Shown: piece by piece, positions 16,839 to 62,105 of the stretch
How positions within the stretch are numbered: the first letter of the stretch is position 1
Layout of the letters: the number at the start of each line of letters is the position of its first letter
NCBI RefSeq assembly: GCF_002259485.1
Contig: NZ_NPGA01000022.1
Span: 1-64,000, forward strand
Reading direction: 5' to 3'
From: Rhodococcus sp. 14-1411-2a
GTDB taxonomy: Bacteria > Actinomycetota > Actinomycetes > Mycobacteriales > Mycobacteriaceae
DNA length: 64,000 nucleotides
Position numbers and translations under genes: made by a program
The notes under the pieces: model-generated
The model's database searches: none
Seen by the model: the letters and a program-made list of their open reading frames with translations, nothing else
What the model was told of the DNA's origin: nothing

Positions 16839-18004
16839 CCGCCTTGAATCCCTTCAAACCAGGATCAGGACTGCGGCCACCAGCGCTGGAGGGGCGAACC
16901 CGCCAACGCGAAGAATTCGACCTTCTCGTGGCTCGGAGCAAGAACCGCAACTATGACCGCGGCATGATCCTGTCCGGCCTCCGCGGTGTCGGCAAAACCA
17001 CCCTTCTCAACAACTTGTCCGAGCACGCCGAACGTCAAGGTTGGTTGACGATTGGCCTCGAGGCGCGACCCAACGAGTCCGGCGTCAGCGCCGTGCGCGC
17101 CAAGCTCGGGTCCGAACTCGCCGCCGGCCTGCGCCGGTTCAGCCGCAAACATCAGATGCAGAAGGCGCTCGATGACCTGATCTCCCTCGCCCGCGGGTTC
17201 ACCCTCGGTGTCGGCCTGGGACCGGCGAAGGTCGAAGTGTCGCTCGATCACGGTGCCGCCAGCGGAGACATCGACCTCGATCTCGAAGAACTCGTCGAGG
17301 CGATCAGCGCCGCGATGAAGAAGAAGGGCACCGCGTTCGGGCTGTTCATCGACGAGATGCAGGACCTCGATTCCGATCTCCTCGGCGCGTTGCTGTCGGT
17401 GCAGCATCGGGCCAGCCAGCGGGAGTGGCCGTTCTTCGTCATCGGCGCGGGTCTGCCCAACCTTCCGTCGGTGCTCGCCGACAACCGGTCCTACGCGGAG
17501 CGGCAGTTCGCCTACAGCACCATCGGTCCCCTGGCACCGGCCGATGCCGCCGAAGCTCTGGAGATCCCAGTCAACCAGCACGGCGGGTCCTTCACCCCCG
17601 ATGCCCTGGCCCTTCTCGTCGAGGCCAGCGGCGGGTACCCGTACTTCCTGCAGGAATACGGCAAAGCCGTCTGGAACGTTGCTGCCACAGCAGTATTCGA
17701 CGAAGACGACGCCCATCTCGCGGTCGAGGAAGGACGACGGGCACTGGACGAGGGATTCTTCCCCTCACGATGGAATCGCCCCTCCGACAGGGAGCGCCGC
17801 TACATGCGCGCGATAGCACTTGCCTCAGACGAGGCACCGCGTTCGGGAGTCGTCGCCGCGGCGATGGGACAAACGACGACCGGTGTCAGCGACGTCCGCG
17901 ACTCCCTGATCCGCAAAGGCCTGATCTGGTCCCCCGAACACGGCCGGATCGCGTTCACCGTGCCGGGGATGTCGGACTTCATCCGGCGCCAGCCCACCGA
18001 CTGA
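16814..18004 (+). CDS. AAA ATPase (ORC/archaeal-ATPase type), function unknown
   Basis: A 396-residue P-loop protein. Walker A is GLRGVGKTT (Lys61) and Walker B is LFIDEMQDL (Asp180-Glu181). An arginine-rich sensor segment and a C-terminal winged-helix-like region (about 325-390, GVSDVRDSLIRKGLIWSPEH) complete an ORC/Cdc6-like or STAND-related ATPase layout. An alternative start, ATG 16832, lies within the palindrome TCCATATGGA. Proteins of this type occur as single genes in actinobacteria and as partners in toxin-antitoxin or defence loci, but no partner is clear here. The following gene (18052) is on the same strand 47 bp away and may be co-transcribed. Confidence 0.82.
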   Translation: MTIVLHMDPALNPFKPGSGLRPPALEGRTRQREEFDLLVARSKNRNYDRGMILSGLRGVGKTTLLNNLSEHAERQGWLTIGLEARPNESGVSAVRAKLGSELAAGLRRFSRKHQMQKALDDLISLARGFTLGVGLGPAKVEVSLDHGAASGDIDLDLEELVEAISAAMKKKGTAFGLFIDEMQDLDSDLLGALLSVQHRASQREWPFFVIGAGLPNLPSVLADNRSYAERQFAYSTIGPLAPADAAEALEIPVNQHGGSFTPDALALLVEASGGYPYFLQEYGKAVWNVAATAVFDEDDAHLAVEEGRRALDEGFFPSRWNRPSDRERRYMRAIALASDEAPRSGVVAAAMGQTTTGVSDVRDSLIRKGLIWSPEHGRIAFTVPGMSDFIRRQPTD

Positions 18005-31964: not shown

Positions 31965-31988
31965 ATCCACAATCTCGGTCGACAAGAC

Positions 31989-32032
31989 ACATACTGCTGA
32001 CCGTCAAGATTCATTGACGGTCAGCAGTATGT
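31989..32032. terminator. Perfect 19-bp hairpin after the methylase-helicase gene
   Basis: Arms ACATACTGCTGACCGTCAA and its exact complement surround a GATTCA loop, 24 bp after the stop. It should terminate transcription on either strand. The inner part, CGTCAAGATTCATTGACG (32002-32019), also fits the CGTCAA-N6-TTGACG operator form seen at 50760 and 53405-53450. Confidence 0.82.
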
Positions 32033-32210
32033 GGGGTGCTTTGTGTTCCCCGAATCGATCTGGCTTTGCGAGGGGACTTCGGGCGATCCCGTCGTCGAAA
32101 GGCCGCACCCGGGCGACCAACAAGGGCACGGTTCTCTATTGAGCGCATGTAACGGTTGGTCGCCTGTGGACGACTTTCCGGCAAGCACACCGTGCACCTG
32201 GAGGCAGACT

Positions 32211-33119: not shown

Positions 33120-36100
33120 TCACAGCCCATGATCGTGGTCGATCCCACGCTCTTGTGTGGCCGAGTCCAGCTCCATCGGCTGCTTCCGAGTGTCCGTGGC
33201 TCCGCGCACTCGTCCGGGTCCAGGTGCGTCCGCAAGCAGGCGCGCGATGCTCTTCTGCGCCTCCGGATCAACATTCTCAGCGCTGCGCCCACCGCTACCG
33301 GTGTCTGTGATTCCGTGGATCGAAGAAGCTTCGATCATCTCGATGGCACCGGCACCGGCGCGAATGCGCTGTTCAGCAGCATGGCGGTCGCCCGCCAGAG
33401 TCACTGCTCGCAGACGCCGTCCGCGTTCGGTGATGGCGGTATCGAACACCGCGGCGGCGGCGAGATCTGCGGCGCGGCGTTCAGGGTCAGTGGCGCGTTG
33501 AACGATCGCCGGCCACTCGCCGGTCTCGGCCTGGACACGTCCGGCGGCGTCGCGTGCGGCGCGTTGAGTGTCTCGCACCTGGCGGGTGAGGCGTTCTTCC
33601 CGTAGACGCGCTTCGGCGGCTGCGGGTTCGAGGGTCTTGCGTTCACGTCTCTTCGCGGTCGACAGCTGCTCGGTGAGCGTCGTGTGTTCGGTGTGTGCGG
33701 CTTCGTATTGCGCGGTGACTCGGCGGAGTTCGGCTGCGAGTTCGCGGGCGTCGGCGATGGCTGCAGCTTGCTCGTCGAGTCGGGCGTACAGCTTCTCGGT
33801 GTCCGCGACGACGGTGGGTGCGGTGCGCGATCGTCCAGCGCGGTCGACGAACGCGATCAACTCGGCGTCCGGGACGAGCCGGATCGGGTCCTGTTCCATC
33901 TTCGCGTGTAGAGCGGCGTCGGCCGGCGAGAGCACCGGTTGCGGATCGTTGGCGGTCTCGCTGGTGTCCTTCACCGCCAGTTCTGTCTGGGCAGGCGCTT
34001 CGTGCTCGAGCTGCTCGACCACGGTATCGATTTGTGATGCGTCAACCGCCGCGGTGGTGGCAGTGGGCTGCTCCTGCGTCGTCAAGGTCGGAGTGTCGGT
34101 CATCGCGGAACGCTTCGCTGCCTGTTCGGCCCGCCACAGCATCGCTTCAGTGCGGTCGACATCGGCCTTGAGCTCGGCGAGCGCGGCGAGGTCGATGCTC
34201 TCGGCCGCCAGGCGTGCGGTGGTGACGTCGACTGCGGTGACTTCTCCCCCGTCTGCGGCGGTGACGCGCTCGTACTCGGCGGCGGCTTCGTGTGCGCGGG
34301 TGCGCGCGGCGGTCGCGGTGTCGTCGACGAATCCGGCGCGCCAGATCTCCCAGTCGAGACCGCGCTGAGCGAGGGCGCGGGCATCGTCGTCGTCCCCGGC
34401 GGCTTCGACGTCGGCGGCGACTGCGGGCCGGATGACGGTGTCGATGTGATGCCAGAGCGCTTCGGCCTCGAACTCGCGGTCGGTCCATTCCTGGCGGGTG
34501 TCGAGCATCGCGATCCGGGCGGGTCGTTGCCGGTCGGCTCGCTCCTGCAGCTCGGACAGCATCGTGCGGGCATGGAACTGTGCCGGGCTGGTGCCGTCGG
34601 AAATCCGACCGCGCAGCTCTCGGTACGTGGTTTTTGCGTCGTCGAGATCTTGGGTGAGCAGGCGGACTCGTTCGTCGGTGGTGACCGTCGGGTACGGCAG
34701 CTCGATCGTCTCGACGTACGAGCGCAGCGCCTCCCACACGTCTACTTCGGCGTCGGTGTCGTCGGTGCCGCCCTCGACCGTGGTGTCCTCGATGCCGAGT
34801 GGTGTTGCGTCGGCCTCGTGGTCGATTCCGGGGAACTCGTCGTCGTAGCCGCCGTCGTATTCCGGCGGGGGCGGCTGGTCGTAGTCTACGGGGGCGTCGA
34901 GTGCATCGAGGGAGGCGAGGTAGTCGGCATCAGCATCGACCGGAACCGATGCGGTCGAGCCGTCGACGACGGTGTCGGACGCAGCAGCCTCGGTCGGTAG
35001 TGCTGTCGGGATGACGAACTCGTCCGGCAGCTCACCGCCGACGGTGTCGGAGACCGCCTCGTCGACCACGAGAACGGCTTCTTCGTCCTCGATCGACAGT
35101 GGTTCGGCGGTGGGTGGGGTGTAGGTGCGGGCGAGGTGGTTCTCACGCACCAGCATCTCGGCCCGCCACGTCAGCGCGGTGGCGAGTTCGTGGGCGGGCA
35201 GGGTGACACCGTGATCGACCGGGTCGATGCCGCCGTGCAGGAACTCGTACGCGGTCCCGAGCAACTGTCCCGGTGTCCACAGTGCCGGGTCGGCGTCGTC
35301 GACGGTCGCCACGAGCGAGGGCCACGCCGGATCGGACATGACTCGGACGGCGGCGGTGTAGCCGAGCAGTTCGGTCAGTACCGGTGCCCAGGATGGTTCG
35401 AGGACCGGGCCGTCCGTGTCCGCGTCGACCGCGGCGGCGGAGAGTTCACCGGACAGTCGCCACCACAGGGCGGCAGCGGGCAGCTCGTCGGGCAGCGGCG
35501 ATGCGGCGAGGGAGTCGCGGACGAGGGTGTGGACTTCGATTCCGGCGCGGGCGGCGGCGGAGAGTCGGTCGGCGAGGATCGGGAAGTACGGATCGCGGGC
35601 GATGTGGGTGTCGAGTTCGTCGACGAACGGTCGCCACCGCTTCACGGCGTCGTTGGTGGTGCCGATGACGGTCTCGGCGCGGCGGTCGAGGCTGCGTTGC
35701 GCTTTCGCCGATGCGGCGGCGAGCTGCTCGGGTCCGGTCGGGCGACGGTCGGCCGGGTCGACGTCGTGTGCGGCGCGGAACACCGCGAGATCGGTGAGCA
35801 GCCCCCGGTCGGGTTCGTCGGTGAGCAGCGGGCGCGCCCACACCGGTGCAGTCGTCGGTGTCCACGTGGCGATGTCGGCGGCGATGCGGTCTCGGTGACC
35901 GGTGATGGCGTCGGCGCGGGCGTCGAGGTAGCTCGCCCACTCCGGTTCTTTGCGCAATACCTCGGGGATGGCGGGCAGCCACGGCAACGGTCCCTGCGCC
36001 GACGCTCCACGTGCTGTCGAGTGGCGTCCGGTGGAGTCGAGTCGCCAGTCCAGGACTGCGGCCCGGTCGAAGGCGCTGCCGAGTTCGCGTTCGGTGATTG

Positions 36101-39100
36101 CGGTGTTCAGTGCGTCGACCGGGTCCCGTCCGTGTGCGGCGAGGATCGCGAGGTGTCCACGCAGGACCGGCCATGCGGCGTCGTCGGTGAGGCCGGCGAC
36201 CGCGGCGTCGGCGGCGGTGTCGATCGCGGCCATCACTGTGGGTCCGGCGAGGACTTCGCAGGCGGTGGCGACGGAGTAGTCGTAGGCGTTCGCGGCCGGT
36301 GCCAGATGCGTGTGAGGGTCGTCGGCTGCAGTGAGGGTGGAGTGCGCGGAGACCTGCGCGCCGTCGCGGCGCAGGATCGCCCGGAAGTCGTCGACGGCGG
36401 TCGGGGGCAGCATTCCGCGTTCGGTCATCGCGGTGTGCAGGTCGCCGTCCGATGCGGTCGCGAGATACATGTGGTTGTTCAGTCGCCCGCGTGTGAGTGC
36501 GACGTAGGCGAGCTGTCGGGTTTCGTCGCCGGTGGCCACGACGTGGCAGGTGTCGGCGGTCGAGCCTTGCGCGGAGTGCACCGTTCCGGCGTAGCCGAGT
36601 TCGGTAGCGGACTGGACGTAGTCCGGTGACAGGGTGACGGTGCGTCCGAGTTCGAGGTGCCGCACTATCAGCGATCCGTCGCGACCGACTTTCTCGACGG
36701 TCCAGCGGTCACCGTTGCGGACCCAGTCGGTCTGCGAGAGCGGGTTGCGGCGATCGTTGGAGCGGGTGCGGACGATGTCCCCGACGCTCGCGCGGAGGCC
36801 GTCGGCGAGGACGGCTTCACGTCCGACCTTCGCGTCGGCGGCGGCGAGGCGGTCGGTGCGGGCACGGGTGTTGAGTTCGGCGACGAGTTCACGAGTGGGG
36901 GCGAGCAGCAGTGCGTCCTTGCCGGCGGCGCGGTCGGCGCTCCACGCGCTGTATGCGTCGTCGGTGACGGTGGCGATGGAGCCGACATGCAGCCGGGAGT
37001 GGTCGATGTAGAAGCCGATCGCGGCGTCGTCGCCGTCGCGCAGTGCGAGCGATGCCGCGCCTTCGGCCGCGCCGGTTGCCTTGTCGCGGAAGCGCACCAC
37101 CTGCGAGAGGGTGAGCGCACCGACGCGGTCGTGGATGTCGCGCAGGACACCACCGGAAGCGACGGACGCGAGCTGTTGATCATCGCCGATCAACCGCACC
37201 GTTGCACCGCGTTCAGCGAGGGCGGTGACTGCGTCGTCGAGGTCGAGGGTGCCGGTCATCCCCGCTTCGTCGACGATGACGAGAGTGTCCTCGCCGATGT
37301 CGGTGTACCACTCGGGAACGGACACCGGATCGCCGTTGCGCAACCGCTTGGTGATGTCGACGAACTTCGCCAACGTATCGGTAGTCGTCAAGATATCTTG
37401 ACGCAGGACTGCGGCGGCAGCAGCAGTCGGCGCGAACCCGACAACGTGTCCGCCTGCGTTCTGCCACGACCGTGTCAGCGCAGTCATGGCGGTGGTCTTG
37501 CCGGTTCCGGCGGGAGCGAGTGCGAGCTGAAGTTTCGCACCGGACGTGGCCATCGCCCGCACCAGTGAGCGCTGCCCGGCGTTGAGTTCGCGGCCGTTCG
37601 CCGCGGACTCGAGCAGTGCCATCTCCACGTGCTTGCCGGGGAGGGCCACACCGTCGTTGCGCTGTGCAAGGGCGACGATGCGTGCTTCGGCGTCGAGTAC
37701 GGCAGTGGTGGTGAACAACGTCGCTTCGTGGCGGGTGTGCACGTCTGCGCCGTCGCGGCGGCGCATCACATTCGGGGCGATGTCTGCCGCAACGTCGTCG
37801 CCTGTCTCGTCCCCCAGGGTGACGGCAAGGTCGGTGCTGCACGCGCGGTCTGTGATCGCATCGACGAGTTCGGTGATCCGATCGGCCGGCGGGTTGGCGG
37901 TGCGGACCTGACGGATCGCTTCGGCGCGAATGTTGTGTCGTTGGTAGCGCGAGCGTGCACGGGAGACGACCTCGACGACTTCGGCGGCGGTGTAGTCGAT
38001 CCAGCGTGGGTCGTCGATGTCCACGCTTGCCCGGGTGCGTTTCTTACCGGTCACCTCGGCCACCATCTTCGACAGTTCTTTCGGTGAACCGAGAACGTCG
38101 ACCGCCTCAGCGCGCCACCCGCTGCGTTGCTCGGCGTGCGAGCGCGGTTCGTGTTTGGCCTGCCGGGTCTCCAGGGTCGCGCGCTGCGCAAGCCGTATCG
38201 CTTCGATGGCGGTCGGTTCGCGGTGATGCTCGGCCTGGAACGCGCGTGCGAGCTCGGCGGTGCGCACGACGATGGCGGCGTTGCGCGAAGACCAGCGTTC
38301 GGCCAATCGTGTGTCCAGGCCGACGATTTCGCGGACGGGTCGCTTCGACCGGTCCTCGCTCGGGCGCTCAGTGAAGTCGACTCCGATGCGTTCACGTAGT
38401 TGCGCTTCGAGGGCGGTGTTGTAGACCTCGGAGGCGGGAACGTTGTTGCGGTACAACGCGGCCCCGTCGAGCGCGAGCCACTTCGTCGTCCCGTCCGGCA
38501 GAGTCGTGGAGACCTTGTTCGAGATCGCGACGTGGGTGTGCAGGTTCGGATCACCCGCGCGCGAATCGCGGTGAGTGAACGCTGCGGCAATCAATCCGTT
38601 CGCGTCGACCTGCGCGACACCGCCGTTGCCGAGACGGGTGAAGCAGGCGTGCTCTTCGAGGTATTCGAGGGCTGCTGCGATCGCGGCGTCGTGCGCTGCT
38701 TCGATCTCCTGCGAGATCTCCCGCGGCGCAACCGCCCACAGCGCCGAGACCGACTTGACCGGAGTGAACGTGAGGTCGAACCCGGCGACGGCTTTGGTGT
38801 TCTGCCGCCCCGATTTGGCGACCCACCCGGACAGTTCACGCTCGTCGGCCGGGACGCGTCCGTACTCGCGCTCGAACATCTCCCTCGCGACGCGGGTGCG
38901 GATCGTTGCGCGCGATTCGGCCTCGATCGGTGCGTTCCATTTCTCGCCGGCCGCGAGGTTGTGCTCGACGAACGCCTTCGCGCACGCGACCCGATAGTCC
39001 GACGCTCCGTTGTCGATCTTGAACGCGCGACCGAGCTTGATCGCCGCCGATGCCGCGCGCTCTGCGTTCTTCGTCGACGCACCGGCAGCGAGCTCGGCCG

Positions 39101-39368
39101 CGAACTTTTCCGCGTACATCGTGTCGGCCTCGGGGTGCAGGCCGTCACCGAACAGCGCCTTCATGTGCGCCTCGGACACCTGCTCCCCTGCGCCGATGGT
39201 TTCCAGCTCGGCGAGTCCGGACCCGGTCCAGCGGCCCGGAGATTCGCCTTTTTCGGAGTAGTACTCGGCCAATGATGCGGCCCCTCGTTCGGTGGAATCT
39301 GCCGCTGCAACCTGCCTGGTCAGGTACGTATACCCGTCCCCGGCGGTGAGCTTGTGCAGACCCATCAT
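33120..39368 (-). CDS. MobF-type conjugative relaxase-helicase (TraI/TrwC-like)
   Basis: A 2082-residue protein. ATG 39368 is chosen because the protein then begins MMGLHKLTAGDGYTYLTRQV, the usual N-terminus with candidate catalytic Tyr13 and Tyr15; AAGG precedes it. The HUH metal site is H266-D268 and H277-T-H279 (HRDSRAGDPNLHTH). A RecD-like helicase follows, with Walker A APAGTGKTT (Lys624), IVDEAGM and a late VHSAQGST motif near 940. The last 900 residues are helical, with no recognised enzyme. The relaxase nicks oriT, attaches to the 5' end and unwinds the transferred strand. It is read leftward from a divergent promoter/oriT candidate at 39369-39557. Length is at the upper end for the family. 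Confidence 0.96.
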   Translation of the reverse strand: MMGLHKLTAGDGYTYLTRQVAAADSTERGAASLAEYYSEKGESPGRWTGSGLAELETIGAGEQVSEAHMKALFGDGLHPEADTMYAEKFAAELAAGASTKNAERAASAAIKLGRAFKIDNGASDYRVACAKAFVEHNLAAGEKWNAPIEAESRATIRTRVAREMFEREYGRVPADERELSGWVAKSGRQNTKAVAGFDLTFTPVKSVSALWAVAPREISQEIEAAHDAAIAAALEYLEEHACFTRLGNGGVAQVDANGLIAAAFTHRDSRAGDPNLHTHVAISNKVSTTLPDGTTKWLALDGAALYRNNVPASEVYNTALEAQLRERIGVDFTERPSEDRSKRPVREIVGLDTRLAERWSSRNAAIVVRTAELARAFQAEHHREPTAIEAIRLAQRATLETRQAKHEPRSHAEQRSGWRAEAVDVLGSPKELSKMVAEVTGKKRTRASVDIDDPRWIDYTAAEVVEVVSRARSRYQRHNIRAEAIRQVRTANPPADRITELVDAITDRACSTDLAVTLGDETGDDVAADIAPNVMRRRDGADVHTRHEATLFTTTAVLDAEARIVALAQRNDGVALPGKHVEMALLESAANGRELNAGQRSLVRAMATSGAKLQLALAPAGTGKTTAMTALTRSWQNAGGHVVGFAPTAAAAAVLRQDILTTTDTLAKFVDITKRLRNGDPVSVPEWYTDIGEDTLVIVDEAGMTGTLDLDDAVTALAERGATVRLIGDDQQLASVASGGVLRDIHDRVGALTLSQVVRFRDKATGAAEGAASLALRDGDDAAIGFYIDHSRLHVGSIATVTDDAYSAWSADRAAGKDALLLAPTRELVAELNTRARTDRLAAADAKVGREAVLADGLRASVGDIVRTRSNDRRNPLSQTDWVRNGDRWTVEKVGRDGSLIVRHLELGRTVTLSPDYVQSATELGYAGTVHSAQGSTADTCHVVATGDETRQLAYVALTRGRLNNHMYLATASDGDLHTAMTERGMLPPTAVDDFRAILRRDGAQVSAHSTLTAADDPHTHLAPAANAYDYSVATACEVLAGPTVMAAIDTAADAAVAGLTDDAAWPVLRGHLAILAAHGRDPVDALNTAITERELGSAFDRAAVLDWRLDSTGRHSTARGASAQGPLPWLPAIPEVLRKEPEWASYLDARADAITGHRDRIAADIATWTPTTAPVWARPLLTDEPDRGLLTDLAVFRAAHDVDPADRRPTGPEQLAAASAKAQRSLDRRAETVIGTTNDAVKRWRPFVDELDTHIARDPYFPILADRLSAAARAGIEVHTLVRDSLAASPLPDELPAAALWWRLSGELSAAAVDADTDGPVLEPSWAPVLTELLGYTAAVRVMSDPAWPSLVATVDDADPALWTPGQLLGTAYEFLHGGIDPVDHGVTLPAHELATALTWRAEMLVRENHLARTYTPPTAEPLSIEDEEAVLVVDEAVSDTVGGELPDEFVIPTALPTEAAASDTVVDGSTASVPVDADADYLASLDALDAPVDYDQPPPPEYDGGYDDEFPGIDHEADATPLGIEDTTVEGGTDDTDAEVDVWEALRSYVETIELPYPTVTTDERVRLLTQDLDDAKTTYRELRGRISDGTSPAQFHARTMLSELQERADRQRPARIAMLDTRQEWTDREFEAEALWHHIDTVIRPAVAADVEAAGDDDDARALAQRGLDWEIWRAGFVDDTATAARTRAHEAAAEYERVTAADGGEVTAVDVTTARLAAESIDLAALAELKADVDRTEAMLWRAEQAAKRSAMTDTPTLTTQEQPTATTAAVDASQIDTVVEQLEHEAPAQTELAVKDTSETANDPQPVLSPADAALHAKMEQDPIRLVPDAELIAFVDRAGRSRTAPTVVADTEKLYARLDEQAAAIADARELAAELRRVTAQYEAAHTEHTTLTEQLSTAKRRERKTLEPAAAEARLREERLTRQVRDTQRAARDAAGRVQAETGEWPAIVQRATDPERRAADLAAAAVFDTAITERGRRLRAVTLAGDRHAAEQRIRAGAGAIEMIEASSIHGITDTGSGGRSAENVDPEAQKSIARLLADAPGPGRVRGATDTRKQPMELDSATQERGIDHDHGL
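37386..37403. promoter_or_regulatory. CGTCAA-N6-TTGACG palindrome inside the relaxase gene
   Basis: CGTCAAGATATCTTGACG is a perfect 18-bp palindrome within coding sequence, just after the Walker A region. It differs by one base from the sites at 53405 and 53433 and by two from that at 50760. It may be a partition or silencing site; the coding context could also constrain it. Confidence 0.55.
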
Positions 39369-39557
39369 GGACCGGACCTTACCAGCGAAATCCACAAACT
39401 GTCCTGAATGCATGAGGTCTGTGGGTTGGTTTTGGCTTCGGATCGGTAAAAGGTGATGGGTCGGAGTGGGTGGGTGAACTGGGGTTTCGTTGGTGGTGGA
39501 TCGGTGATGTGGCGGGAGGTTGTGTCAGGATCTGTGAAATTGACGGTGTCTGGGGCT
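39369..39557. other. Divergent relaxase/accessory intergenic region, oriT candidate
   Basis: The 189-bp gap between the relaxase and the accessory gene has strong strand asymmetry: from about 39410 to 39540 the plus strand is G/T-rich and poor in C, with runs such as GGGTTGGTTTTGG. MobF oriT sites usually lie next to the relaxase gene and show this kind of skew. No long inverted repeat stands out. The nick site cannot be fixed from sequence alone. It also must carry promoters for both genes. Confidence 0.5.
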
Positions 39558-50412: not shown

Positions 50413-50435
50413 CCTTACAGTCTGAGACTGTAAGG
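50413..50435. promoter_or_regulatory. CCTTACAG operator, copy 1 (perfect)
   Basis: Arms CCTTACAGTCT and AGACTGTAAGG around a central G form a perfect 23-bp palindrome. It starts 8 bp upstream of ATG 50405 on the minus strand. The same context, CATGCCCC then AACCTTACAGTCT, precedes the 52864 gene. Confidence 0.85.
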
Positions 50436-50456: not shown

Positions 50457-50479
50457 CCTTACAGTCGGAGCCTGTAAGG
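50457..50479. promoter_or_regulatory. CCTTACAG operator, copy 2
   Basis: CCTTACAG and CTGTAAGG arms with a 7-bp centre of imperfect symmetry, 44 bp centre to centre from copy 1. It lies 37 bp upstream of the plus-strand HTH gene, so copies 1 and 2 sit in a divergent promoter. Confidence 0.8.
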
Positions 50480-50515: not shown

Positions 50516-50734
50516 ATGCCCGACGAACTCACCACCGCCGACGTGCTGGCGCTGATCGAAGACAAAACCGGCAAGGCCATATCGACCAAGACGTGGTCGT
50601 CGTACGTCGCGCGCGGGCAGGCCCCGAAACCGGCGCGACACCTCTCGCGCACGCCGCTGTATGCGCGGGAGGACATCGAGCAGTGGATCACCGACCGGCC
50701 AGGGAGCGGTGCAAGGACCGACCTCCGACCGTGA
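50516..50734 (+). CDS. Excisionase/AlpA-type HTH DNA-binding protein
   Basis: A 72-residue protein starting at ATG 50516 with AGGAAG upstream. It fits the MerR-like winged HTH of excisionases: LTTADVLALIEDKTGKAIST, WSSYVARGQAPKPARHLSRT, PLYAREDIEQWITDRPG. It is divergent from the zinc-finger gene, with two CCTTACAG palindromes in between, so it is the best candidate for the protein that binds them. It could be a plasmid copy-control or transfer repressor, or an excisionase for an integrated form. Confidence 0.82.
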   Translation: MPDELTTADVLALIEDKTGKAISTKTWSSYVARGQAPKPARHLSRTPLYAREDIEQWITDRPGSGARTDLRP

Positions 50735-50759
50735 CGAGCGAACCCACCAACCCCTCGAT

Positions 50760-50777
50760 CGTCAACATCTCTTGACG
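50760..50777. promoter_or_regulatory. CGTCAA-N6-TTGACG site at the 3' side of the HTH gene
   Basis: CGTCAACATCTCTTGACG differs by one base from the sites at 53405 and 53433. It directly abuts the bidirectional terminator and lies 60 bp from the end of the ParB-like gene, so a role in transcription start is unlikely; a partition or loading site is possible. Confidence 0.65.
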
Positions 50778-50824
50778 AACAGGAAGGGCCCCTGCCATCG
50801 GGTGATGGTCGGGGCCCTTCTGTT
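50778..50824. terminator. Bidirectional terminator between HTH and ParB-like genes
   Basis: AACAGGAAGGGCCCC pairs with GGGGCCCTTCTGTT, with one bulged base and a loop that forms a smaller CCATC/GATGG stem. It separates convergent genes. Confidence 0.8.
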
Positions 50825-50836
50825 GTTGCGGTTCGA

Positions 50837-52489
50837 TCAGGCGTCGTCGTCGACGGCGGCGTAGGCGGTGTCGACGGTGATGTTGCCGATCGCGGCCTGT
50901 TCCACCGGGGTCAGGGTGTGCCCGCTGTCGGCGAGGAAGGTCAGGTAACTGTCGATGCCGACCATGCCTCGGTAGTGCTTGGAGGAGAAGCGCCAGTAGT
51001 CCTTGGCGTCCTGGGGGCCGGTGAGTCGGGCCTCGAACGCGGTGAGCACGCGAGCAAGGAGCAGCACCTCGGCGCGGGCGGCGGTGGCACCGTCGACCTT
51101 TCGGGTGACCTCACGTAGGGAGGAGCCCATGATCTCGGCGTACCGCTCCGAGCACTTTGATTCGGTGAACACATCACCATGGGTGGACAGGGTGGTCACC
51201 ATCCACTTGGTGGCGTTCTTCGGGACGTCCTTGCGTGAGAGCAGGCCGGTGAGGAACGTACGCCGTGCCTCGGTCGCGGTCGCTCCGGCGCGATTGAGTG
51301 CCTTGACCTTTCGGCGTTCGGCCCGCTCTTTCTCGATGCGTTCGGCTTCGGCACGGGCCGCTTTCCGCTGCGCCGGGGTCAACCCGTCCTCAGCGTCTCC
51401 ACCACCCTCTGTGTCGGCGGCGGCGATCTTCTCGGGGGAGAGTTCGAGGCCGGCCGCAGTCCGTCTGTCGTGATGGAGGAAGAACTCGTGGCCCCAGGCG
51501 GTCACCTTCTCGACCGTGTTTGCGTGCCGCAGCTCCTCGTACGCCTCGGCCTCGGCCTCGTCATCGCCCTCGGTGTCGAAGTCGATGTCGTCCTCGTCGA
51601 CTTCCTCGCGGGTGGTCTTGTCGACCCAGATGATGCCGGTCTCGTGGACGTGGACGTGCCACAGGTGCGGTGCTTGCTCCGGGGCGTCGGCCGGGACTGC
51701 CGCGCCGTCGGCGGTGCGCAGGTCTACGAGGGTGTACCACTCCCCCTCGCTGGTGGACGGTTCGTCGTGGAGCAGGGTGAAGCCGCGCGCGATGTAGTCG
51801 GCTGCGGCGGCAGTGGTCTCGGCGCGTTCGTCGATGCGGCGCTGGAGGGTGGCCAGGCGGTACTCGAAGCCGAATCTGTTGTCGAAGATCTGCTCGATTG
51901 CCTCGGTGATCCACGGCTCCGTCTGCGCGGCGTCTTCGAGATCGGCCAGAATCGCGGCCCCTTCGAGGGTGAGCTGACGGTCGTCGAGCTGGCGGCGAGC
52001 GCGCTCGGATCTCCCCGCGCGACCGGCCTTTTCGACGTAGGCCTTGGGGACGTGCAGTGCTGTCGCGACCTTCTGCACGTTCAGACCCAGGTCGAGCAGG
52101 CCGGTGACGGCGGCGGCGCGTTGCCCGGTGGTGAGGTCTTCGCGCTGATCGTTGGATACGACCTGCTCGGTGATGCGTTCGATGCCTGCGGCCTTCTCGT
52201 CGTCGGACTGCTCCCGGACCATCACCGGTATCGAGGTGAGACCGGCTTCGCGGGCCCCGAGAGTTCTGCGCTGTCCGTCGTGGACGACCAGGGTTCCGTC
52301 GGTGCGGCGGACCGCCGAGACGGCCTGGAGGACACCGTGGGCGGCGATGGAGGCGACGAACTCGGGGTCGGCGGTGATGTCGACGCCGTCGCGGACGTTG
52401 GCGGTGATGTCGAGGTCGTGCGGGTCGGCGTGGACGAGGGTGTAGCCGGTCGAGGTCGGTGCCGATTGTGCAGCCGTGGCGATGGTCAT
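50837..52489 (-). CDS. ParB-like protein
   Basis: A 550-residue protein starting at ATG 52489 with AGGGAG upstream. Residues about 15-95 form a ParB/Srx N-terminal domain (LDITANVRDGVDIT, EFVASIAAHGVLQAVSAV, VHDGQRRTLGAREAGL), the part that binds CTP in ParB proteins, followed by a HTH linker (LTTGQRAAAVTGLLDLGLNV, VPKAYVEKA) to about 180. The rest is acidic and helical (EEVDEDDIDFDTEGDDEAEA) with a C-terminal domain of unknown type. At 550 residues it is longer than a typical ParB. No ParA gene is seen. Candidate binding sites are the CGTCAA-N6-TTGACG palindromes flanking it (50760, 53405-53450). Confidence 0.88.
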   Translation of the reverse strand: MTIATAAQSAPTSTGYTLVHADPHDLDITANVRDGVDITADPEFVASIAAHGVLQAVSAVRRTDGTLVVHDGQRRTLGAREAGLTSIPVMVREQSDDEKAAGIERITEQVVSNDQREDLTTGQRAAAVTGLLDLGLNVQKVATALHVPKAYVEKAGRAGRSERARRQLDDRQLTLEGAAILADLEDAAQTEPWITEAIEQIFDNRFGFEYRLATLQRRIDERAETTAAAADYIARGFTLLHDEPSTSEGEWYTLVDLRTADGAAVPADAPEQAPHLWHVHVHETGIIWVDKTTREEVDEDDIDFDTEGDDEAEAEAYEELRHANTVEKVTAWGHEFFLHHDRRTAAGLELSPEKIAAADTEGGGDAEDGLTPAQRKAARAEAERIEKERAERRKVKALNRAGATATEARRTFLTGLLSRKDVPKNATKWMVTTLSTHGDVFTESKCSERYAEIMGSSLREVTRKVDGATAARAEVLLLARVLTAFEARLTGPQDAKDYWRFSSKHYRGMVGIDSYLTFLADSGHTLTPVEQAAIGNITVDTAYAAVDDDA

Positions 52490-52579
52490 GATGGCGGTCT
52501 CCCTGGTTAGTGTGTGCAGGTGAGGCACCGGGCAGATATCAGCTGCCCGGTGCCTCGCAGGTGGAGGGTCGAGCGAGGG

Positions 52580-52864
52580 TCAGCGGTCGGCGGTCTTCGC
52601 GACAGGTAGTTCCCAGATCGGATCTTCTGCACAGGGGGCGCTGATGTCGACCCAGCGCCCGGTGACCGCGTATCCGCGGCGGTCGAGCAGCACCTGCGCC
52701 ATGTCCGGGGTCCAGTCCATCGGTGCGTGCTCCTCGATGCCGGTCGCGTCGATGTACTCGACCTCGATGCCGCCCCGTCGGATGGACACTCCCAGGCCGC
52801 GTTCGGGGCGTTCGTCGCCGTATTCGGAGGTGACTGCTGTGAGGTCGCGCTGCGTTTCTCCCAT
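52580..52864 (-). CDS. Hypothetical protein under the CCTTACAG operator
   Basis: A 94-residue protein starting at ATG 52864. Segments LGVSIRRGGIEVEYIDATGI and MDWTPDMAQVLLDRRGYAVT suggest a small alpha/beta fold. No family recognised. It is upstream of the ParB-like gene on the same strand with 90 bp between, and probably co-transcribed. Its start context (CATGCCCC before an operator) is the same as at the 50405 gene, implying one regulator controls both. Confidence 0.68.
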   Translation of the reverse strand: MGETQRDLTAVTSEYGDERPERGLGVSIRRGGIEVEYIDATGIEEHAPMDWTPDMAQVLLDRRGYAVTGRWVDISAPCAEDPIWELPVAKTADR

Positions 52865-52872
52865 GCCCCTAA

Positions 52873-52895
52873 CCTTACAGTCTCAGACTGTATAG
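52873..52895. promoter_or_regulatory. CCTTACAG operator, copy 3
   Basis: CCTTACAGTCT and AGACTGTA form a palindrome with two mismatches at the outer right arm. It starts 8 bp upstream of ATG 52864, exactly the spacing of copy 1 at the 50405 gene. Confidence 0.8.
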
Positions 52896-53014
52896 TCAAG
52901 TGCTGCAACGTATTTCGATGCCAACGCGCAGGGGAGCTGATTCGTTGCGGGTTTCGAGAGGTGGCATCGCGCACACTCGGATCGCTTACAGCGCAGGATG
53001 ATCGAGCCTGCGAC

Positions 53015-53413
53015 TCACGCCGGGTCGGTGCGGCGGGTGGGGTTCTCGATGCGAGGGCGCAGATTGTAGGTGTCGTACCACTGCTGTGCGGCTTGCTTGC
53101 TCATGCCGAGGATCTCGCCGATCTTCGACCACGGCACGGGTCGCTCCTGGCTGCGGAGGCGTCCGATGATGGCGTAGCGGTCGGCGATCATCGTCGAGGC
53201 GAGGAAGGCGTTGATCTCGAGTGCGTCGACATCGGAGACCGCGTCGTCCATGCGTCGTTGGGCGTTCGCGGTCCACGTCCCGGCGTCCTTGCGCCCCTGC
53301 TCGCGCACCATATCGGCCAGGTCGACGTCGACGAGAGCGTCCTTGTACTGGACGTAGAGCTCCGTCAGCTCGGTTGCGGTGAGGGCCTTCTCCGATTCCA
53401 TAATCGTCAACAT
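53015..53413 (-). CDS. HTH regulator, candidate binder of CGTCAA-N6-TTGACG sites
   Basis: A 132-residue protein. ATG 53413 has GGAG 13 bases upstream; ATG 53401 is an alternative without one. Residues about 95-120 form a HTH (PWSKIGEILGMSKQAAQQWY) of the type seen in sigma-like and phage regulators. The helical N-terminal part (TATELTELYVQYKDALVDVD, LEINAFLASTMIADRYAIIG) probably dimerises. Two palindromes overlap its start and ribosome binding site, consistent with autorepression. It precedes the 52864 and ParB-like genes. Confidence 0.75.
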   Translation of the reverse strand: MLTIMESEKALTATELTELYVQYKDALVDVDLADMVREQGRKDAGTWTANAQRRMDDAVSDVDALEINAFLASTMIADRYAIIGRLRSQERPVPWSKIGEILGMSKQAAQQWYDTYNLRPRIENPTRRTDPA

Positions 53414-53450
53414 ATCTTGACGCTCTCCATATCGTCAAGATATGTTGACG
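53405..53450. promoter_or_regulatory. Paired CGTCAA-N6-TTGACG operators
   Basis: CGTCAACATATCTTGACG (53405-53422) and CGTCAAGATATGTTGACG (53433-53450) are each palindromic in their arms, and one is the exact reverse complement of the other, with centres 28 bp apart. The first covers the start codon region of the 53413 gene, the second its upstream promoter. Confidence 0.85.
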
Positions 53451-53462
53451 ATTGGTCGAGTG

Positions 53463-53624
53463 TCAGTCGACGGGAGTCGCTGCCTCGGCAGGGCACCACT
53501 GGCCTTCGAGACGAAGAAAGCCTTTACCGTTACCAATGGGGATGTCGAAGCTCAAACAGCAAAGCCACTGTCCCCGTGATGTTTTCACCCACGCCGAGAG
53601 CAGACCGGGGACCTTGACGTCCAT
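53463..53624 (-). CDS. Small protein, probably 5'-truncated by the recombinase unit
   Basis: From ATG 53624 the frame gives 53 residues (MDVKVPGLLSAWVKTSRGQW, then LCCLSFDIPIGNGKGFLRLE, to a TGA at 53463). In the same frame natural-looking residues continue upstream through about 53750 (GHLSIRAQNIALTVAGSSGG) but no start codon of usual type is found before the recombinase gene. I suspect the C-terminal end of a longer gene cut by insertion of the recombinase unit. No family recognised. Confidence 0.5.
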   Translation of the reverse strand: MDVKVPGLLSAWVKTSRGQWLCCLSFDIPIGNGKGFLRLEGQWCPAEAATPVD

Positions 53625-53752
53625 TGCCAAACCTTCGGAACGGATTTTGAGAGGTGTCCCGTCACGGAAAGAGCCGCCTCCGGACGAACCTGCAACGGTG
53701 AGCGCTATGTTTTGTGCACGGATGGACAGATGTCCACGTACTGTTGCCCACC

Positions 53753-55237
53753 ATGCCGAAACCTGGTTGGCGTGTTTGTATCACTCCACACGAGTTGGTG
53801 CCGCGGCCAGCGGTTCCGGACACAAATTTGGAGTGGCCTGGGTTCGCGCGGCCAGAGTTGGTGGCCGGCACGCCGTTCCTCATCGACCCGGTATTCGAGT
53901 ACGACGTCGAACTAAATGCCTTCTTCAGATCAGTCGATATGCAGACGAAGGCGCGCAACACCCAGGTGGGCTACGCCCGCGATCTAGCCGCGTTTTTGAA
54001 CTTCGTTGCTGTCTCACGAGACAGAACTCGTTGGCGCGACGTCAACGAGGCTGACCATCTGGCGTACTGGCGCTGGCGCAGGATCGACCCCCAAGGGCCG
54101 CACATACAAGGTGCGACATGGGACCGAGAGGTTGCCGCAGTCGACAAGTTCTACCAATGGCAGGTCCGCGCGGGCCACATATTGACAAACCCTGTGCCGC
54201 ACAGAGTTCGACAGCCAACACCGTTCGGCGCGGGCTTCGTCCGTCATGACTCTTCGACCACAACACCGGCAACCTACTCGCACGATGCCGCGACGGATCG
54301 TATCGAGTGGCTCCCACCCCAGTCCTACCGTTTGTGGCGCGATGTCGGGATTCGCGGATATCGCGCCGACGGTGTCCACGACACCGGGTTTCGCGGTCGC
54401 TGGGCGGCGCGCAACGCGTCATTCTGCGACTTGATGGTGCGCACCGGGATGCGGTTGTCCGAGCAAGCGGCGCTGACGGTATTCGATGTGCCCGCAGCTC
54501 GCAGTCTGGGGGGCTATCAACGTTTTTGGTTGCCGACGGCCATCTCCAAAGGTCGTTCGGCCCGCCGGGTCTACGTTCCTGAATCCGTGATCGCCGACCT
54601 GATCGGGTACGTGACACTCGATCGCGCGGAGGTCGTCGACCGCGCACGCGCCTGCGGACGGTACGAACAGGTTCGCCGCCCGCTCGTGATCCCTGATCCG
54701 CATTCGCCGGTCGTCGTGCAGACTCGGTCCGGTCTGAGATCGACCGTGAAAGTTTCCAACCTCGATGCCGACGAGCGCCGCCGTTTGCTCATCGACGGGC
54801 CCGATGGTTTGACGCCGGCCGCGTTCTGGCTGTCGGAGTTCGGCACCCCCATGGCGGTCTCGACCTGGAAAGACATGTTCGCAGTCGCCAACACACGGTG
54901 TCGTCGAGCAGGAGTTCCTCTGTCTGCACATGCTCACCTCCTGCGGCACACGTTCGCGGTGGTGACTCTGGAACAGCTTCAGCGCGGACATATCAGCGCG
55001 ATGACTGAGATGACTGCCGAACAGCGAGGGCAATGGACACAGATCTTCGGTGACCCTCTGGACTGGGTGCGACGTCGGCTCGGGCACCGCTCCGTGGTGA
55101 CAACACAGATCTACTTACACGCGCTGTCGGAATTGGAAATGGAAACGCGAATGATGTTGGTGCCCAACACATGGGAAGATCCCCGCGACACTCCACTCGA
55201 TGTCTTCGACGTCGCCACTGAGAACAAAACGCAGTGA
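53753..55237 (+). CDS. Tyrosine recombinase A of the trio
   Basis: A 494-residue recombinase starting at ATG 53753 (MPKPGWRVCITPHELV); a GTG at 53714 would add 13 residues. An N-terminal SAM-like core-binding domain (about 60-150; TKARNTQVGYARDLAAFLNF) is followed by the catalytic domain with the full set of residues: Arg234 in RTGMRLSE, His395 and Arg398 in HLLRHTF, His445 in LGHRS and nucleophile Tyr454 in TTQIYLH. All look intact, so it should be an active strand exchanger. Overlaps gene B by GTGA. Confidence 0.93.
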   Translation: MPKPGWRVCITPHELVPRPAVPDTNLEWPGFARPELVAGTPFLIDPVFEYDVELNAFFRSVDMQTKARNTQVGYARDLAAFLNFVAVSRDRTRWRDVNEADHLAYWRWRRIDPQGPHIQGATWDREVAAVDKFYQWQVRAGHILTNPVPHRVRQPTPFGAGFVRHDSSTTTPATYSHDAATDRIEWLPPQSYRLWRDVGIRGYRADGVHDTGFRGRWAARNASFCDLMVRTGMRLSEQAALTVFDVPAARSLGGYQRFWLPTAISKGRSARRVYVPESVIADLIGYVTLDRAEVVDRARACGRYEQVRRPLVIPDPHSPVVVQTRSGLRSTVKVSNLDADERRRLLIDGPDGLTPAAFWLSEFGTPMAVSTWKDMFAVANTRCRRAGVPLSAHAHLLRHTFAVVTLEQLQRGHISAMTEMTAEQRGQWTQIFGDPLDWVRRRLGHRSVVTTQIYLHALSELEMETRMMLVPNTWEDPRDTPLDVFDVATENKTQ

Positions 55238-57054
55238 GCGGTCGCGGCAGTACCGGGACCGGGCGCCGCGCGATGCTCCCATCTGGCCCGTACACACCGA
55301 CCGAAGGCGAACACGCCATCGCCTCCGGCCTCACGGTCCGATTCGATGGTGAAGACGGCCGGACTCTGCTGGTGGACGTCGCGAAGATGGCGCTGCCCGG
55401 TTGGCACACGGCAGTTGCAGAGGCTCTGGCCCTTGCCCTCGGGGCGACGGGACGCAGCAGGACGCTCAGCTCAGCGAAGGGACTGGTTACGAGGGTGCGA
55501 TCCATGCTGCGATCCCTCTCGGAACTGCGGGATCCGCCGACCGGACCACCGTTGCTGGAGACCGCCCACCTCCAATCTGTCTACAACCAGCGCAGAGTAA
55601 CGCAGAAGGACGTCTACGCCTGGCGAGGCATCGCACTTTTCGGACAGTTCCTGACGTTGCCACCGCTGGTCGATACGGTGAATTCATCAGTGATCGACTA
55701 CACCTGCCGCCAGATCGGGCAGACCCGGATTGGCCAACCTGGCTACTCGGACGGAGAGTTCGATCGTATTCTCTCAGCCGCTCGGTCTGACATCACCGCA
55801 TTGCGCGATCGGATTCGACTCTCGGAAGCTGCAATAGGACAAACGGGTGAACGGGAAGGCTTGGAGGGCGACAAAGAGCTCGTCGCGATTGCGGAATCAG
55901 GAGTCGTACCCCCGAGCCGGAGCTTCAGCGCGCACGTTGTCAGACTGGAGCTTGCGAGCCGGCTCTATATGACGATCCGGGACCTCGCGCCGATGCTCGT
56001 GTTGATGGTGGCGCTGACCGGCCGCAATATCGAAACCATCAAAGAGCTCCCCTGGGAACACCGAATCCTGGAGACACGCGCCGTCGAAGTTCGTGTCATC
56101 AAACGCCGCCGCGGCAATCACCGATGGTTCGAGACCGCGACGTGGGAGATCGGGCCACCGGGTCGCGAACTGCACTATCCCGGCGGTCTTTACCTACTGC
56201 TACACGAACTGACCACTCGCAGCAGGAACACTTCTGGCAGCGCATCCGTTTGGTCGATCTGGCGTAGCGGCCACAACACCGGCCTTCGCGGTATCGAAGA
56301 ACATTTCGACCCATTCGCTCGCGAACTGACCGCGACAGCAATCAACCTTGCCGGATGGCGCACCCGGCATTGCCTCCACGCTGACGTCGTCGACGGAACG
56401 CCCCCGGCTCCGCTTGCGGTCACCGGCAACCGGATCAAGACCACGGCAGACGTGCGCCGTACCAAACAGATCGGCGGTCACCTCCCGTCCGCTGCCCGGA
56501 GCAACACCATCCCGGTTCTGTTCCGGAACTATCTACGCGGAGACCCGACAACACAGGAATGGGCACACACCGTTGTTGCGGCTGCCGTCAGCGACGCCGA
56601 ATCGAGCGCTCTGGCAGCACACAGACGGGCGCTGCACGTTGCAGGAGGCACACTGAACGTGCAGCCGGAACGCTCCGCCACCGATCCCGATGGTGAAACC
56701 CCGTCGACGCATGCAGACGCAGCCGATACCGCCTGGTCAGCGTGCCGGGATCACGACCACCATCCCGCCACCGGGAGAAGCTGTCGCGCATCGTTTCTCG
56801 ACTGCTTTCACTGCGGAAACTGCGTGGTCACACCGGATCACCTTCCTGGACTGCTCGGATTGCTCGATGCGCTGGCGGCCCGCCGCGATCAGCTGTCGGA
56901 GGCCGATTGGTGGGTCCGATACGGACCGACGTGGGCGGCCATCCGCCATGACGTTCTCTCGAAGTTCAATCGGTCCGAGATCCTGGCGGCAACGGAGATC
57001 AAACCCACCGATGCACTTCTCGATCTCGTCGAATCACCATGGGAGCAAACATGA
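55234..57054 (+). CDS. Tyrosine recombinase-like B of the trio
   Basis: A 606-residue protein starting at GTG 55234. The catalytic-domain start is recognisable (MLVLMVALTGRNIETIKELP, in which the Arg may be the first catalytic one). The later part has KTTADVRRTKQIGGHLPSAA in place of the normal H-x2-R box, as in Tn554 TnpB-like proteins. The C-terminus has a Cys/His cluster (ACRDHDHHPATGRSC, FLDCFHCGNC) that probably binds zinc. It may be catalytically divergent or serve as structural partner. No clear nucleophile Tyr is identified by eye. Confidence 0.85.
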   Translation: MSGRGSTGTGRRAMLPSGPYTPTEGEHAIASGLTVRFDGEDGRTLLVDVAKMALPGWHTAVAEALALALGATGRSRTLSSAKGLVTRVRSMLRSLSELRDPPTGPPLLETAHLQSVYNQRRVTQKDVYAWRGIALFGQFLTLPPLVDTVNSSVIDYTCRQIGQTRIGQPGYSDGEFDRILSAARSDITALRDRIRLSEAAIGQTGEREGLEGDKELVAIAESGVVPPSRSFSAHVVRLELASRLYMTIRDLAPMLVLMVALTGRNIETIKELPWEHRILETRAVEVRVIKRRRGNHRWFETATWEIGPPGRELHYPGGLYLLLHELTTRSRNTSGSASVWSIWRSGHNTGLRGIEEHFDPFARELTATAINLAGWRTRHCLHADVVDGTPPAPLAVTGNRIKTTADVRRTKQIGGHLPSAARSNTIPVLFRNYLRGDPTTQEWAHTVVAAAVSDAESSALAAHRRALHVAGGTLNVQPERSATDPDGETPSTHADAADTAWSACRDHDHHPATGRSCRASFLDCFHCGNCVVTPDHLPGLLGLLDALAARRDQLSEADWWVRYGPTWAAIRHDVLSKFNRSEILAATEIKPTDALLDLVESPWEQT

Positions 57055-59144: not shown

Positions 59145-59575
59145 GTAAACGCATCGACCTCCCGAGCGAGCAGGACGTCCGTCGAGTGATGACAGAGCAC
59201 CTCGAAGACGCAGCATCGGCCGGCGGCCGCGCCACTGTCATCGGCCTTGCCCGTCGACTGGGTCTGTCCAACGCAACCTTCTGGCGGCACTACCCCGCTA
59301 TCGCTGCCGAACTCAGAGCCGCTTCCGTCGCAGCTCCCGTCGCCACACGGCATGACGACCGGACCGAACTCCTTGCCTCCAACAAGCGCGTGCAACGAGA
59401 CAACGCGGCGCTGACTCAAGACCTCACCCTCGCACTGGCCGTCATCCAGCGGCTAACACTCGACAACCACGCCCTACGGAAAGAACTGGAAACAACGTCA
59501 GGGGTGATCTCCCTGCAGTCACGCTCGAACTCCGCGGACGCTGTCGTGGGCGCGTGTGGCCGGCAGGACCGCTAA
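59141..59575 (+). CDS. Small HTH/coiled-coil helper (DUF6262-like, TnpC position)
   Basis: A 144-residue protein starting at ATG 59141. Residues about 25-55 form a TetR-like HTH (RATVIGLARRLGLSNATFWR, HYPAIAAELR). Residues about 75-125 form a coiled coil (LLASNKRVQRDNAALTQDLT, LDNHALRKELE). This resembles the DUF6262 family found with integrase sets, and the position corresponds to TnpC of Tn554, which sets orientation and efficiency of transposition. DNA binding at the element ends is inferred. Confidence 0.78.
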   Translation: MSKRIDLPSEQDVRRVMTEHLEDAASAGGRATVIGLARRLGLSNATFWRHYPAIAAELRAASVAAPVATRHDDRTELLASNKRVQRDNAALTQDLTLALAVIQRLTLDNHALRKELETTSGVISLQSRSNSADAVVGACGRQDR

Positions 59576-59679
59576 GCCTCGATAAAGCTGCAAGATACTG
59601 GCGTCGGGGAGGAAGTATCCTCTGACCAGAATTGATTCGAGTTCTCACACAGCGAATCAGACCAGACCACCGAGTATGT

Positions 59680-61396: not shown

Positions 61397-61397
61397 C

Positions 61398-62054: not shown

Positions 62055-62105
62055 GTGTGTGTGACTTCAGTCGACTGGACCGGAAGCTGATCTTCACGTC
62101 CCACC

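Follow-up and report, generated by a model that had tools for sequence, protein, structure and literature searches.

The DNA analysed here is the first 64,000 bases (1-64000, hereafter the window) of a 171,577-base contig of Rhodococcus sp. 14-1411-2a, and its subject is a family of palindromes of the form CGTCAA-N6-TTGACG, two of which precede the gene for a 128-amino-acid (aa) helix-turn-helix (HTH) protein, named P0001. The distribution of the palindrome in related genomes and plasmids indicated that P0001 is, with high probability, the protein that binds it and represses its own gene. A wider reading, to which an even chance is given, is that one operator word (CGTCAA-N6/7-TTGACG, paired at 27-28 base pairs (bp) over a leaderless promoter) would serve a class-wide HTH family with varying partners (Clp_N, none or plasmid-specific), that the shared HTH would be the reader also in ClpC2, and that a plasmid branch would have multiplied the site into a stoperator-like set, one member of it held in rare codons of the relaxase gene mobF, which would stop elongation and so silence transfer genes.

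The palindrome and the promoter of P0001

The gene of P0001 and the exact matches to the palindrome in the window were located as follows:
53015..53401, minus strand: P0001, 128-aa HTH protein, proposed binder and autorepressor (open reading frame (ORF) listed from 53413)
53405..53422, minus strand: putative proximal operator CGTCAACATATCTTGACG, exact match, holding the predicted -10 box TATGTT (53414-53409, minus strand)
53433..53450, minus strand: putative distal operator CGTCAAGATATGTTGACG, exact match, holding the predicted -35 box (53438-53433, minus strand)
50760..50777, no strand assigned: class-B site, exact match, just beyond a GC-rich hairpin (about 50780-50822) behind parB
37386..37403, no strand assigned: class-C site in mobF, exact match, RQDILT being encoded as CGT CAA GAT ATC TTG ACG
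31988..32033, no strand assigned: class-D hairpin behind a giant helicase gene, found by palindrome scan, with the site 32002-32019 at its tip
17033..17050, no strand assigned: sixth exact match (core GGTTGG), within the reading frame of an AAA ATPase and fitting the 46-site profile poorly

The first five of these sites (53405, 53433, 50760, 37386 and 32002) had been pointed out in an earlier note on this DNA and all proved to be exact, whereas the site at 17033 was absent from its list. The half-words occur 21 times (CGTCAA) and 20 times (TTGACG) in the window, and among spacings of 0-30 their inverted pairing was seen at N6 only. The six exact sites stand against an expectation of about 0.01, which is 0.0066 when computed from the numbers of half-sites and 0.013 under a first-order Markov model. 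When two mismatches were allowed, eight matches were found against a shuffle mean of 4.28, and 6 of 100 shuffles reached eight; the motif signal thus resides in the exact form. The scan of the remaining replicon and genome that the note had called for gave nine exact sites in the 5.61-Mb genome, six of them in the window; the 107.6 kb that complete the 171.6-kb contig hold no exact site. All three sites on other contigs overlapped the repeat GTCAA-N6-TTGACGGTGCGGTAACTG (1-2 mismatches), designated class E. The 17033 site violates two well-conserved core positions (A6 and T9); it is a doubtful member of the set and may be a chance match.

The earlier note had also let two sites overlap the start of the gene at 53413. 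Both sites are indeed found at the beginning of this gene, but the overlap did not hold, as the start is most likely the ATG at 53401 (MESEK...), where close homologues align. Both sites therefore lie just upstream of the start codon and not over it, the proximal one ending 3 nucleotides (nt) before the ATG. The promoter predicted from the sequence is TTGACG-18-TATGTT on the minus strand with 7 nt to the ATG, and the transcript is predicted to be leaderless. P0001 itself gave only weak Pfam matches at E<=0.1, to HTH_23 (below its cut-off) and HTH_11, and the stretch PWSKIGEILGMSKQAAQQW was conserved in the alignment of its homologues.

Homologues of P0001 were found in 13 of 37 genomes of the genus and on four plasmids among 72,556, namely Cryobacterium pA26BH1 (W01), R. 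fascians pA21d2 (W02), Rhodococcus NBC_00294 (W03) and a plasmid of R. opacus (W04). In 16 of the 17 genes the proximal site ends 2-3 nt short of the start codon (in W03 with one mismatch of the ten half-site bases), and in W04 a one-mismatch site overlapped the annotated start. A second site was present 27-28 bp upstream in 13 of the 17 genes at no more than one mismatch of ten, one member of the pair being mismatched in W01, W03, G028 and G032. Only a single site was found in G021, G029, G020 and W04. The predicted promoter has the distal TTGACG as the -35 box, the proximal TATSTT as the -10 box 17-18 bp from it, and the ATG 6-7 nt later; three close homologues had the proximal site only. 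The coverage of both boxes by the operator pair suggests, from this geometry and the analogous design of ClpC2, that P0001 represses itself.

A second promoter with P0001-type sites was found on related plasmids before a small gene, two sites forming a pair in W01 and in W02 and a single one being present in G003. In G018 (L056:2196) and G019 (L057:17920/17947) one or two P0001-type sites stand before a leaderless GTG frame, presumably encoding a D12-type DNA methylase, as judged from a motif in the protein start. At four of the five P0001 homologues without P0002 (see below) or mobF neighbours, a site was seen 27-64 nt past the matched frame, which is once more a gene-end position (L064:8444, L065:9428, L066:9122 and L063:9096).

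The class-E repeats were kept apart from this set as an element of another kind. Conservation across 32 copies (at most one mismatch) was strong in the right flank and only weak in the left half and the core, and such repeats occur in genomes lacking P0001. They were detected in 32 of 37 genus genomes (at most two mismatches of the right part), with several copies on some contigs, all in one orientation; examples are G000:C18:13347, C25:288807, C25:333246, L073:10383, L053:10015 and L068:7802, among others. The spacer of 6 bp that separates the inverted halves is reminiscent of a tyrosine-recombinase core, and the class-E repeat may be an integration or cassette-type site.

The binder: P0001 or the ParB-like P0002

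Downstream of P0001 lie a small gene and the gene for a ParB-like protein, P0002, and in this region a second palindrome was noticed:
50837..52528, minus strand: P0002, ParB-like (ParB_N; Pfam PF02195, 29.2 bits against a cut-off of 26.3), its presence uncoupled from the motif
52580..52864, minus strand: ORF94, between P0001 and the ParB-like gene, no Pfam match, with a small gene at the equivalent place in W01 and W02
52875..52893, no strand assigned: TTACAG-N7-CTGTAA with one mismatch, at the ORF94-parB promoter
50415..50433, no strand assigned: TTACAG-N7-CTGTAA, first member of a pair that lies beyond parB between two divergent genes
50459..50477, no strand assigned: TTACAG-N7-CTGTAA, second of this pair, at a pitch of 44

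The palindromes had been proposed to be either a parS-like set or the sites of a plasmid-wide repressor. The second half of this proposal gained support, while the ParB-like protein as the binder did not, because the motif follows P0001. In G021, G028, G029 and G032, P0001 is present without P0002 (E<=1e-20) and the site is still found at the P0001 promoter. The mobF type studied here is missing from the same four genomes and from G020 (G028 has a 40%-identical mobF elsewhere); P0002 is absent from four of these five at the same threshold, the exception being G020, where a 39% homologue lies on a separate contig. The genome of G028 is a single contig, and the neighbours of P0001 in it resemble ordinary metabolic genes by eye. 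Conversely, nine genomes (G002, G005, G012, G013, G014, G023, G024, G025 and G031) have a P0002 homologue without P0001. The string CGTCAANATNTNTTGACG was not found in five of them, was present once in three, where it overlaps a class-E repeat, and was left as one degenerate copy in the mobF gene of G013. Hence the co-occurrence of motif and ParB gene expected of a ParABS system was not observed.

The ORF94-parB unit has a palindrome of its own, TTACAG-N7-CTGTAA, with three copies at no more than one mismatch in the window against 0.01 expected. It is kept on the P0001-less plasmid of G002 and absent at the five P0001-only loci. As to its binder, ORF94, P0002 and the gene at 50435 are candidates. 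On pA21d2 about 9 kb separate the annotated parA-parB pair from the closest backbone site, and the annotated genes around P0002 in W01 and W02 include no ParA. AAA_31 matches were obtained at C5:122793 and W01:58567, far from P0002, in a search that did not score the annotated ParA of W02.

The possibility that the sites are parS-like centromeres loaded by P0002 is consistent with the one site kept at a conserved place behind parB and with the alignment of P0002 with Spo0J, Noc and, weakly, KorB. Against it stand the survival of the motif where P0002 is missing, its absence (save for the G013 mobF copy) where P0002 occurs alone, the different palindrome of the parB operon retained by G002, and the two sites built into a promoter at -35/-10 spacing. 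The persistence of the motif without P0002, its lack with P0002 alone save for a relic, and the separate palindrome point to P0001 as the probable binder of the motif. The ParB/parS reading was rejected on the co-occurrence mismatch and the separate motif, and we consider it very improbable; some sites may additionally serve plasmid positioning or stability.

A link to the neighbouring trio of recombinase-like genes was likewise dropped, since the insert carrying it is absent there in G011 and W01 while the sites are kept, which makes the recombinase neighbourhood incidental. This insert of about 8.6 kb (window about 53706-62328) holds the trio (53714-59144) and other genes; only the first gene of the trio had a Pfam integrase match above cut-off. 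A segment of 5.2 kb from 53322 onward is present in the G008 stretch examined. Among viral contigs, 104 stretches fitted P0001 peptide patterns with no relative found by tblastn, and CGTCAANATATNTTGACG occurred in 39 stretches.

A probable class-wide HTH family and ClpC2

The published anchor of the proposed design is ClpC2 of mycobacteria (Rv2667), for which a pseudopalindrome CGTCAAC-n5-GTTGACG is described 1-2 nt before the ORF and again upstream, over the -35 and -10 boxes (Taylor et al. 2023, PMC10030653). According to the same source, its transcript was suggested to be leaderless, and autorepression was shown with a reporter and an electrophoretic mobility shift assay. DNA binding was assigned there to the C-terminal domain (R185/R189), the N-terminal part being a dimerisation domain, and a need for the dimer in tight binding was supported by results with the isolated C-terminal domain and with R57A, a form deficient in dimerisation (PMC10030653). 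P0001 is similar in that its palindrome, with CGTCAA/TTGACG halves, lies a few nt before the start (3 nt, compared with 1-2 for ClpC2) and that its site pair covers the predicted -35 and -10 boxes of a leaderless promoter. It differs in lacking Clp_N (no Pfam match) and in that P0001-type sites are spread through the plasmid backbone.

The operator is shared far beyond the plasmids. Relatives whose likeness is almost confined to the HTH (Prauserella L102, G063, G150, G288 and G320) have two near-sites close before the start codon, at a pitch of 28 in three of them, 25 in G320 and 18 in G288. With a profile (A5) built from P0001 and relatives of this kind, matches at E<=1e-5 were obtained in 237 genomes among 394 of the class, some of the matches probably being other HTH proteins. 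The P0001 profile (A1) and the HTH-only profile (A6) were related in hhalign with a probability of 97.9% (E 5e-13), and P0001 has the pattern SW..IG..LGxSKQA of the related HTH proteins.

In the class-wide test, GTCAA-N6-8-TTGAC with at most one mismatch of ten was sought 0-6 nt before an in-frame start. Seventy loci were used, comprising L222-L248 (27), the 40 rows that come next in the match list and three plasmid loci, to the exclusion of the rows below these 40 and of two earlier rows without a locus (G524:C5 and G063:C2); the loci that had given the idea (L086-L089, L102 and L017) and L101 were also excluded. By a criterion fixed after earlier inspection, for which control palindromes and a density contrast were the sole guards against tuning, the site was found at 36 of the 70 loci, which include near relatives and are not independent. 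A second site stood 25-30 bp upstream in 28 of the 36, at 27 or 28 bp in 22 of these 28, whereas seven control palindromes scored 0, 0, 0, 0, 0, 0 and 2 of 70. The 12-base form (at most one mismatch), present in 30 of the 70 loci, occurred 45 times per 26,833 nt upstream of the HTH, a zone defined as 90 nt before the open frame up to the HTH, against 3 times per 140,348 nt elsewhere in the same loci. A looser earlier test on L222-L251 and L101 had given 19 of 31 against 53 of 782 other ORFs. No site was found at L101, a distant relative from an acidimicrobiial metagenome-assembled genome. These data suggest that P0001 is one of a set of HTH autorepressors, spread over the Actinomycetes, with the half-site GTCAA and a recognition helix [ST]-[KR]-Q-A, proteins which the libraries searched name generic HTH at most.

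Ten HTH proteins read as 66-101 aa carry the proximal site, all but three of the HTH-only lengths resting on start codons picked near TTGAC, and no Clp_N was found in the five of the ten that were scanned against Pfam. A ClpC2-like locus, L267, combines the HTH with Clp_N (PF02861, 3.7e-17) and has a site pair at pitch 28. The N-terminal region of ClpC2 (PDB 8ADA) is related to the HTH-only family (E 6e-5 against A6), and its structure ends ...GASWSDIGKSMGV, just before the aligned SKQAV helix; the crystallised fragment would thus appear to lack its recognition helix. Since HTH-only proteins without Clp_N share the operator, it is suggested that ClpC2 reads it through the N-terminal HTH and not through the proposed C-terminal patch. 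In that case the weaker binding of R185A/R189A would need another cause, for example backbone contacts or altered assembly. The 84-aa RelI (PDB 9SDC) was also related to the HTH-only family (E 1.3e-11).

Sites away from promoters and their possible role

The class-C site lies within the relaxase gene:
33120..39413, minus strand: MobF relaxase-helicase gene containing the class-C site (Pfam TrwC 5.4e-84; NCBIfam MobF 4.7e-67)

The codons of this site have shares of 0.10, 0.29, 0.15, 0.92, 0.08 and 0.16 in the mobF gene of the window. Among 21 mobF homologues, 18 of 18 bases were retained in eight, 17 in G013 and G007C15, and at most nine in ten more distant ones, with 18 of 18 also in the mobF of W01 and W02. 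The window gene and nine others (73-94% nucleotide identity to it) share all 18 bases in rare codons, whereas the 86% identical mobF of G002, which has no P0001, retains 11.

All 10 stretches of this plasmid type that were examined (G007 counted twice) have the class-B site after the parB hairpin, although in W02 an IS30 element displaces it from the hairpin; the P0001-less G002 has the hairpin without the site. The hairpin appears terminator-like by its position only: it has no T run, and a scan of 50600-53600 gave no terminator-like site. A class-D hairpin with the site at its tip was found no more than 110 nt past the giant helicase gene in six of eight plasmids of the type (G030 included), and G002 and NBC_00297 had no site at this 3' end. 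W01 and G026 carry a site-tipped hairpin elsewhere. Among nine site hairpins, 8 of 15 pairs changed on both sides, the inner six were invariant and all cells paired, the complete pairing being partly built in, as the rows were picked for their hairpin look and the imperfect G026:16357 was dropped. The single sites of classes B, C and D were rejected as promoters, mostly having no partner box of at least 5/6 at 16-18 bp. None was found for class D (nine sites) or for the five class-C sites, of ten, that were tested, and class B had exceptions in two of ten (CTGACA in G007C13 and TTGACT in G007C15).

Two further palindromes were noticed in this connection. One with 16-bp arms, GCCCTGGTGGGTCCTGCATGACCCACCAGGGC, lies before the giant helicase gene (about 24966-24997) and has near relatives in W01, W02 and G002. 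Another, of the type TCTAGTC..GACTAGA, occurs at L076:10437, L072:9910, L056:15878, L044:1194 and L054:6396, its place in W02 being between hicA and lsr2.

We propose the following working of the system. P0001, probably as a dimer, would bind each palindrome, and from the two operators over -35 and -10 it would repress its own leaderless promoter. At the class B, C and D sites it might block elongating polymerase in the manner of a phage stoperator repressor, and such roadblocks could keep transfer and maintenance genes quiet and seal operon ends. The roadblock role is put forward tentatively, at somewhat less than an even chance. Its closest working model would be the stoperator system of cluster A mycobacteriophages. 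The L5 stoperator word reportedly ends in GTCAAG, a string that was not found in the text of the two phage papers cited below.

In cluster A phages one repressor serves operators at promoters and many elongation-blocking intergenic sites; the stoperators are described as 13-bp, asymmetric, oriented with transcription and bound by a monomer with two DNA-binding domains, and in the stoperator repressor of TipsytheTRex R45 and Q46 contact bases (PMC9283540, PMC6550527). The recognition helix TRQAV of the latter aligns with SKQAV of the P0001 family (E 0.0016), and classes B and D share with stoperators a position outside promoters at gene ends. Unlike stoperators, the P0001-type sites are palindromic rather than asymmetric and oriented, and they are fewer, about 5-8 per plasmid.

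Pfam holds models for KorA and KorB, and neither P0001 nor P0002 had a Pfam match of either name, the KorA/TrfB model included. The arrangement is nevertheless like KorA/KorB of RK2, where a small HTH repressor and a ParB-family protein are encoded close together and operators lie at core promoter elements and at distal sites, with the difference that the distal sites here carry the motif of the small protein and the distal OB sites of RK2 are those of KorB (PMC11790492). SpdA2 of pIJ101 is, as P0001 is predicted to be, a small actinobacterial plasmid DNA-binding protein with conserved palindromes (sps), some in coding sequence or over a start codon; sps is a different, 12-bp palindrome, within spdA2 in pIJ101, and the phenotype reported is one of stability (PMC4170104). 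C.Kpn2I, likened here by the description of its mechanism, is a small regulator whose site within a coding region stalls elongating RNA polymerase, as is supposed for P0001 by analogy; unlike P0001 it is a restriction-modification controller with the site in its own gene (PMC6237814).

Several observations weigh against the proposed working. A second invariant run in mobF, 27 nt long and non-palindromic, begins 27 nt past the start of the site, which makes the conservation of a run weak evidence; it was rejected as standalone proof, and codon rarity and the comparison with G002 were used instead. G030:C77 keeps 18 of 18 bases of the mobF site and two hairpins in a genome without P0001 (E<=1) or P0002 (E<=1e-20), and the mobF of G013 (NBC_00297 plasmid coordinates) retains 17 of 18 without P0001. 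G003 and W01, of this plasmid type, have a helicase-end hairpin lacking the motif, and 34 of the 70 class-wide loci failed the site test. A consensus promoter scan of 50600-53600 gave three hits, namely the operator pair on the minus strand, the same pair on the plus strand and CTGACA-18-TATCTT, so that the pair is read both ways. The roadblock is argued from position and analogy only, and the hairpins have no T run such as classical terminators possess.

Two other explanations of the scattered sites were weighed. P0001 could be mainly a plasmid-organising or stability protein that bridges or positions copies through these sites, with promoter control being secondary. The mostly promoter-less class B, C and D sites are in line with this idea, and so is SpdA2, which binds palindromes within a coding region and affects segregational stability (PMC4170104). 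Yet the promoter site(s) survive at P0001 genes that come without P0002 or the studied mobF, as does a site shortly downstream at four of these five genes, and their retention thus requires no role in a plasmid; moreover, the annotated backbone sites of W01 and W02 are at promoters, at gene ends or in mobF. This explanation is regarded as unlikely. Less probable still is that function is confined to the promoter pair and that the sites of classes B, C and D are without any. The loss of a single base and the persistence of sites where P0001 is missing (G013 and G030) would agree with it, and the exact conservation in mobF might come from shared ancestry. It is countered by the ten mobF genes sharing the 18 bases in rare codons when G002 does not, by the turnover of hairpin arms around an unchanged inner site (in rows chosen as hairpins) and by the constancy of the site after the parB hairpin (10 of 10).

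An autorepressor with operators over its own promoter is already known, the design having been shown for ClpC2. In the literature searched, the exact motif strings were not found, and searches with the half-site led to the ClpC2 paper and to no other that was recognisable, as judged by titles and abstract starts, as dealing with this system. As far as these searches go, the class-wide family on one operator word, the predicted reader domain and the plasmid branch with its stoperator-like sites, among them the one in rare codons of mobF, are new. The result gives a likely DNA-binding specificity and promoter architecture to many small actinobacterial HTH proteins, and a correction is proposed to the DNA-reading region of a published mycobacterial regulator. 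If the roadblock reading is true, conjugative plasmids, like phages, would use scattered operators as transcription stops.
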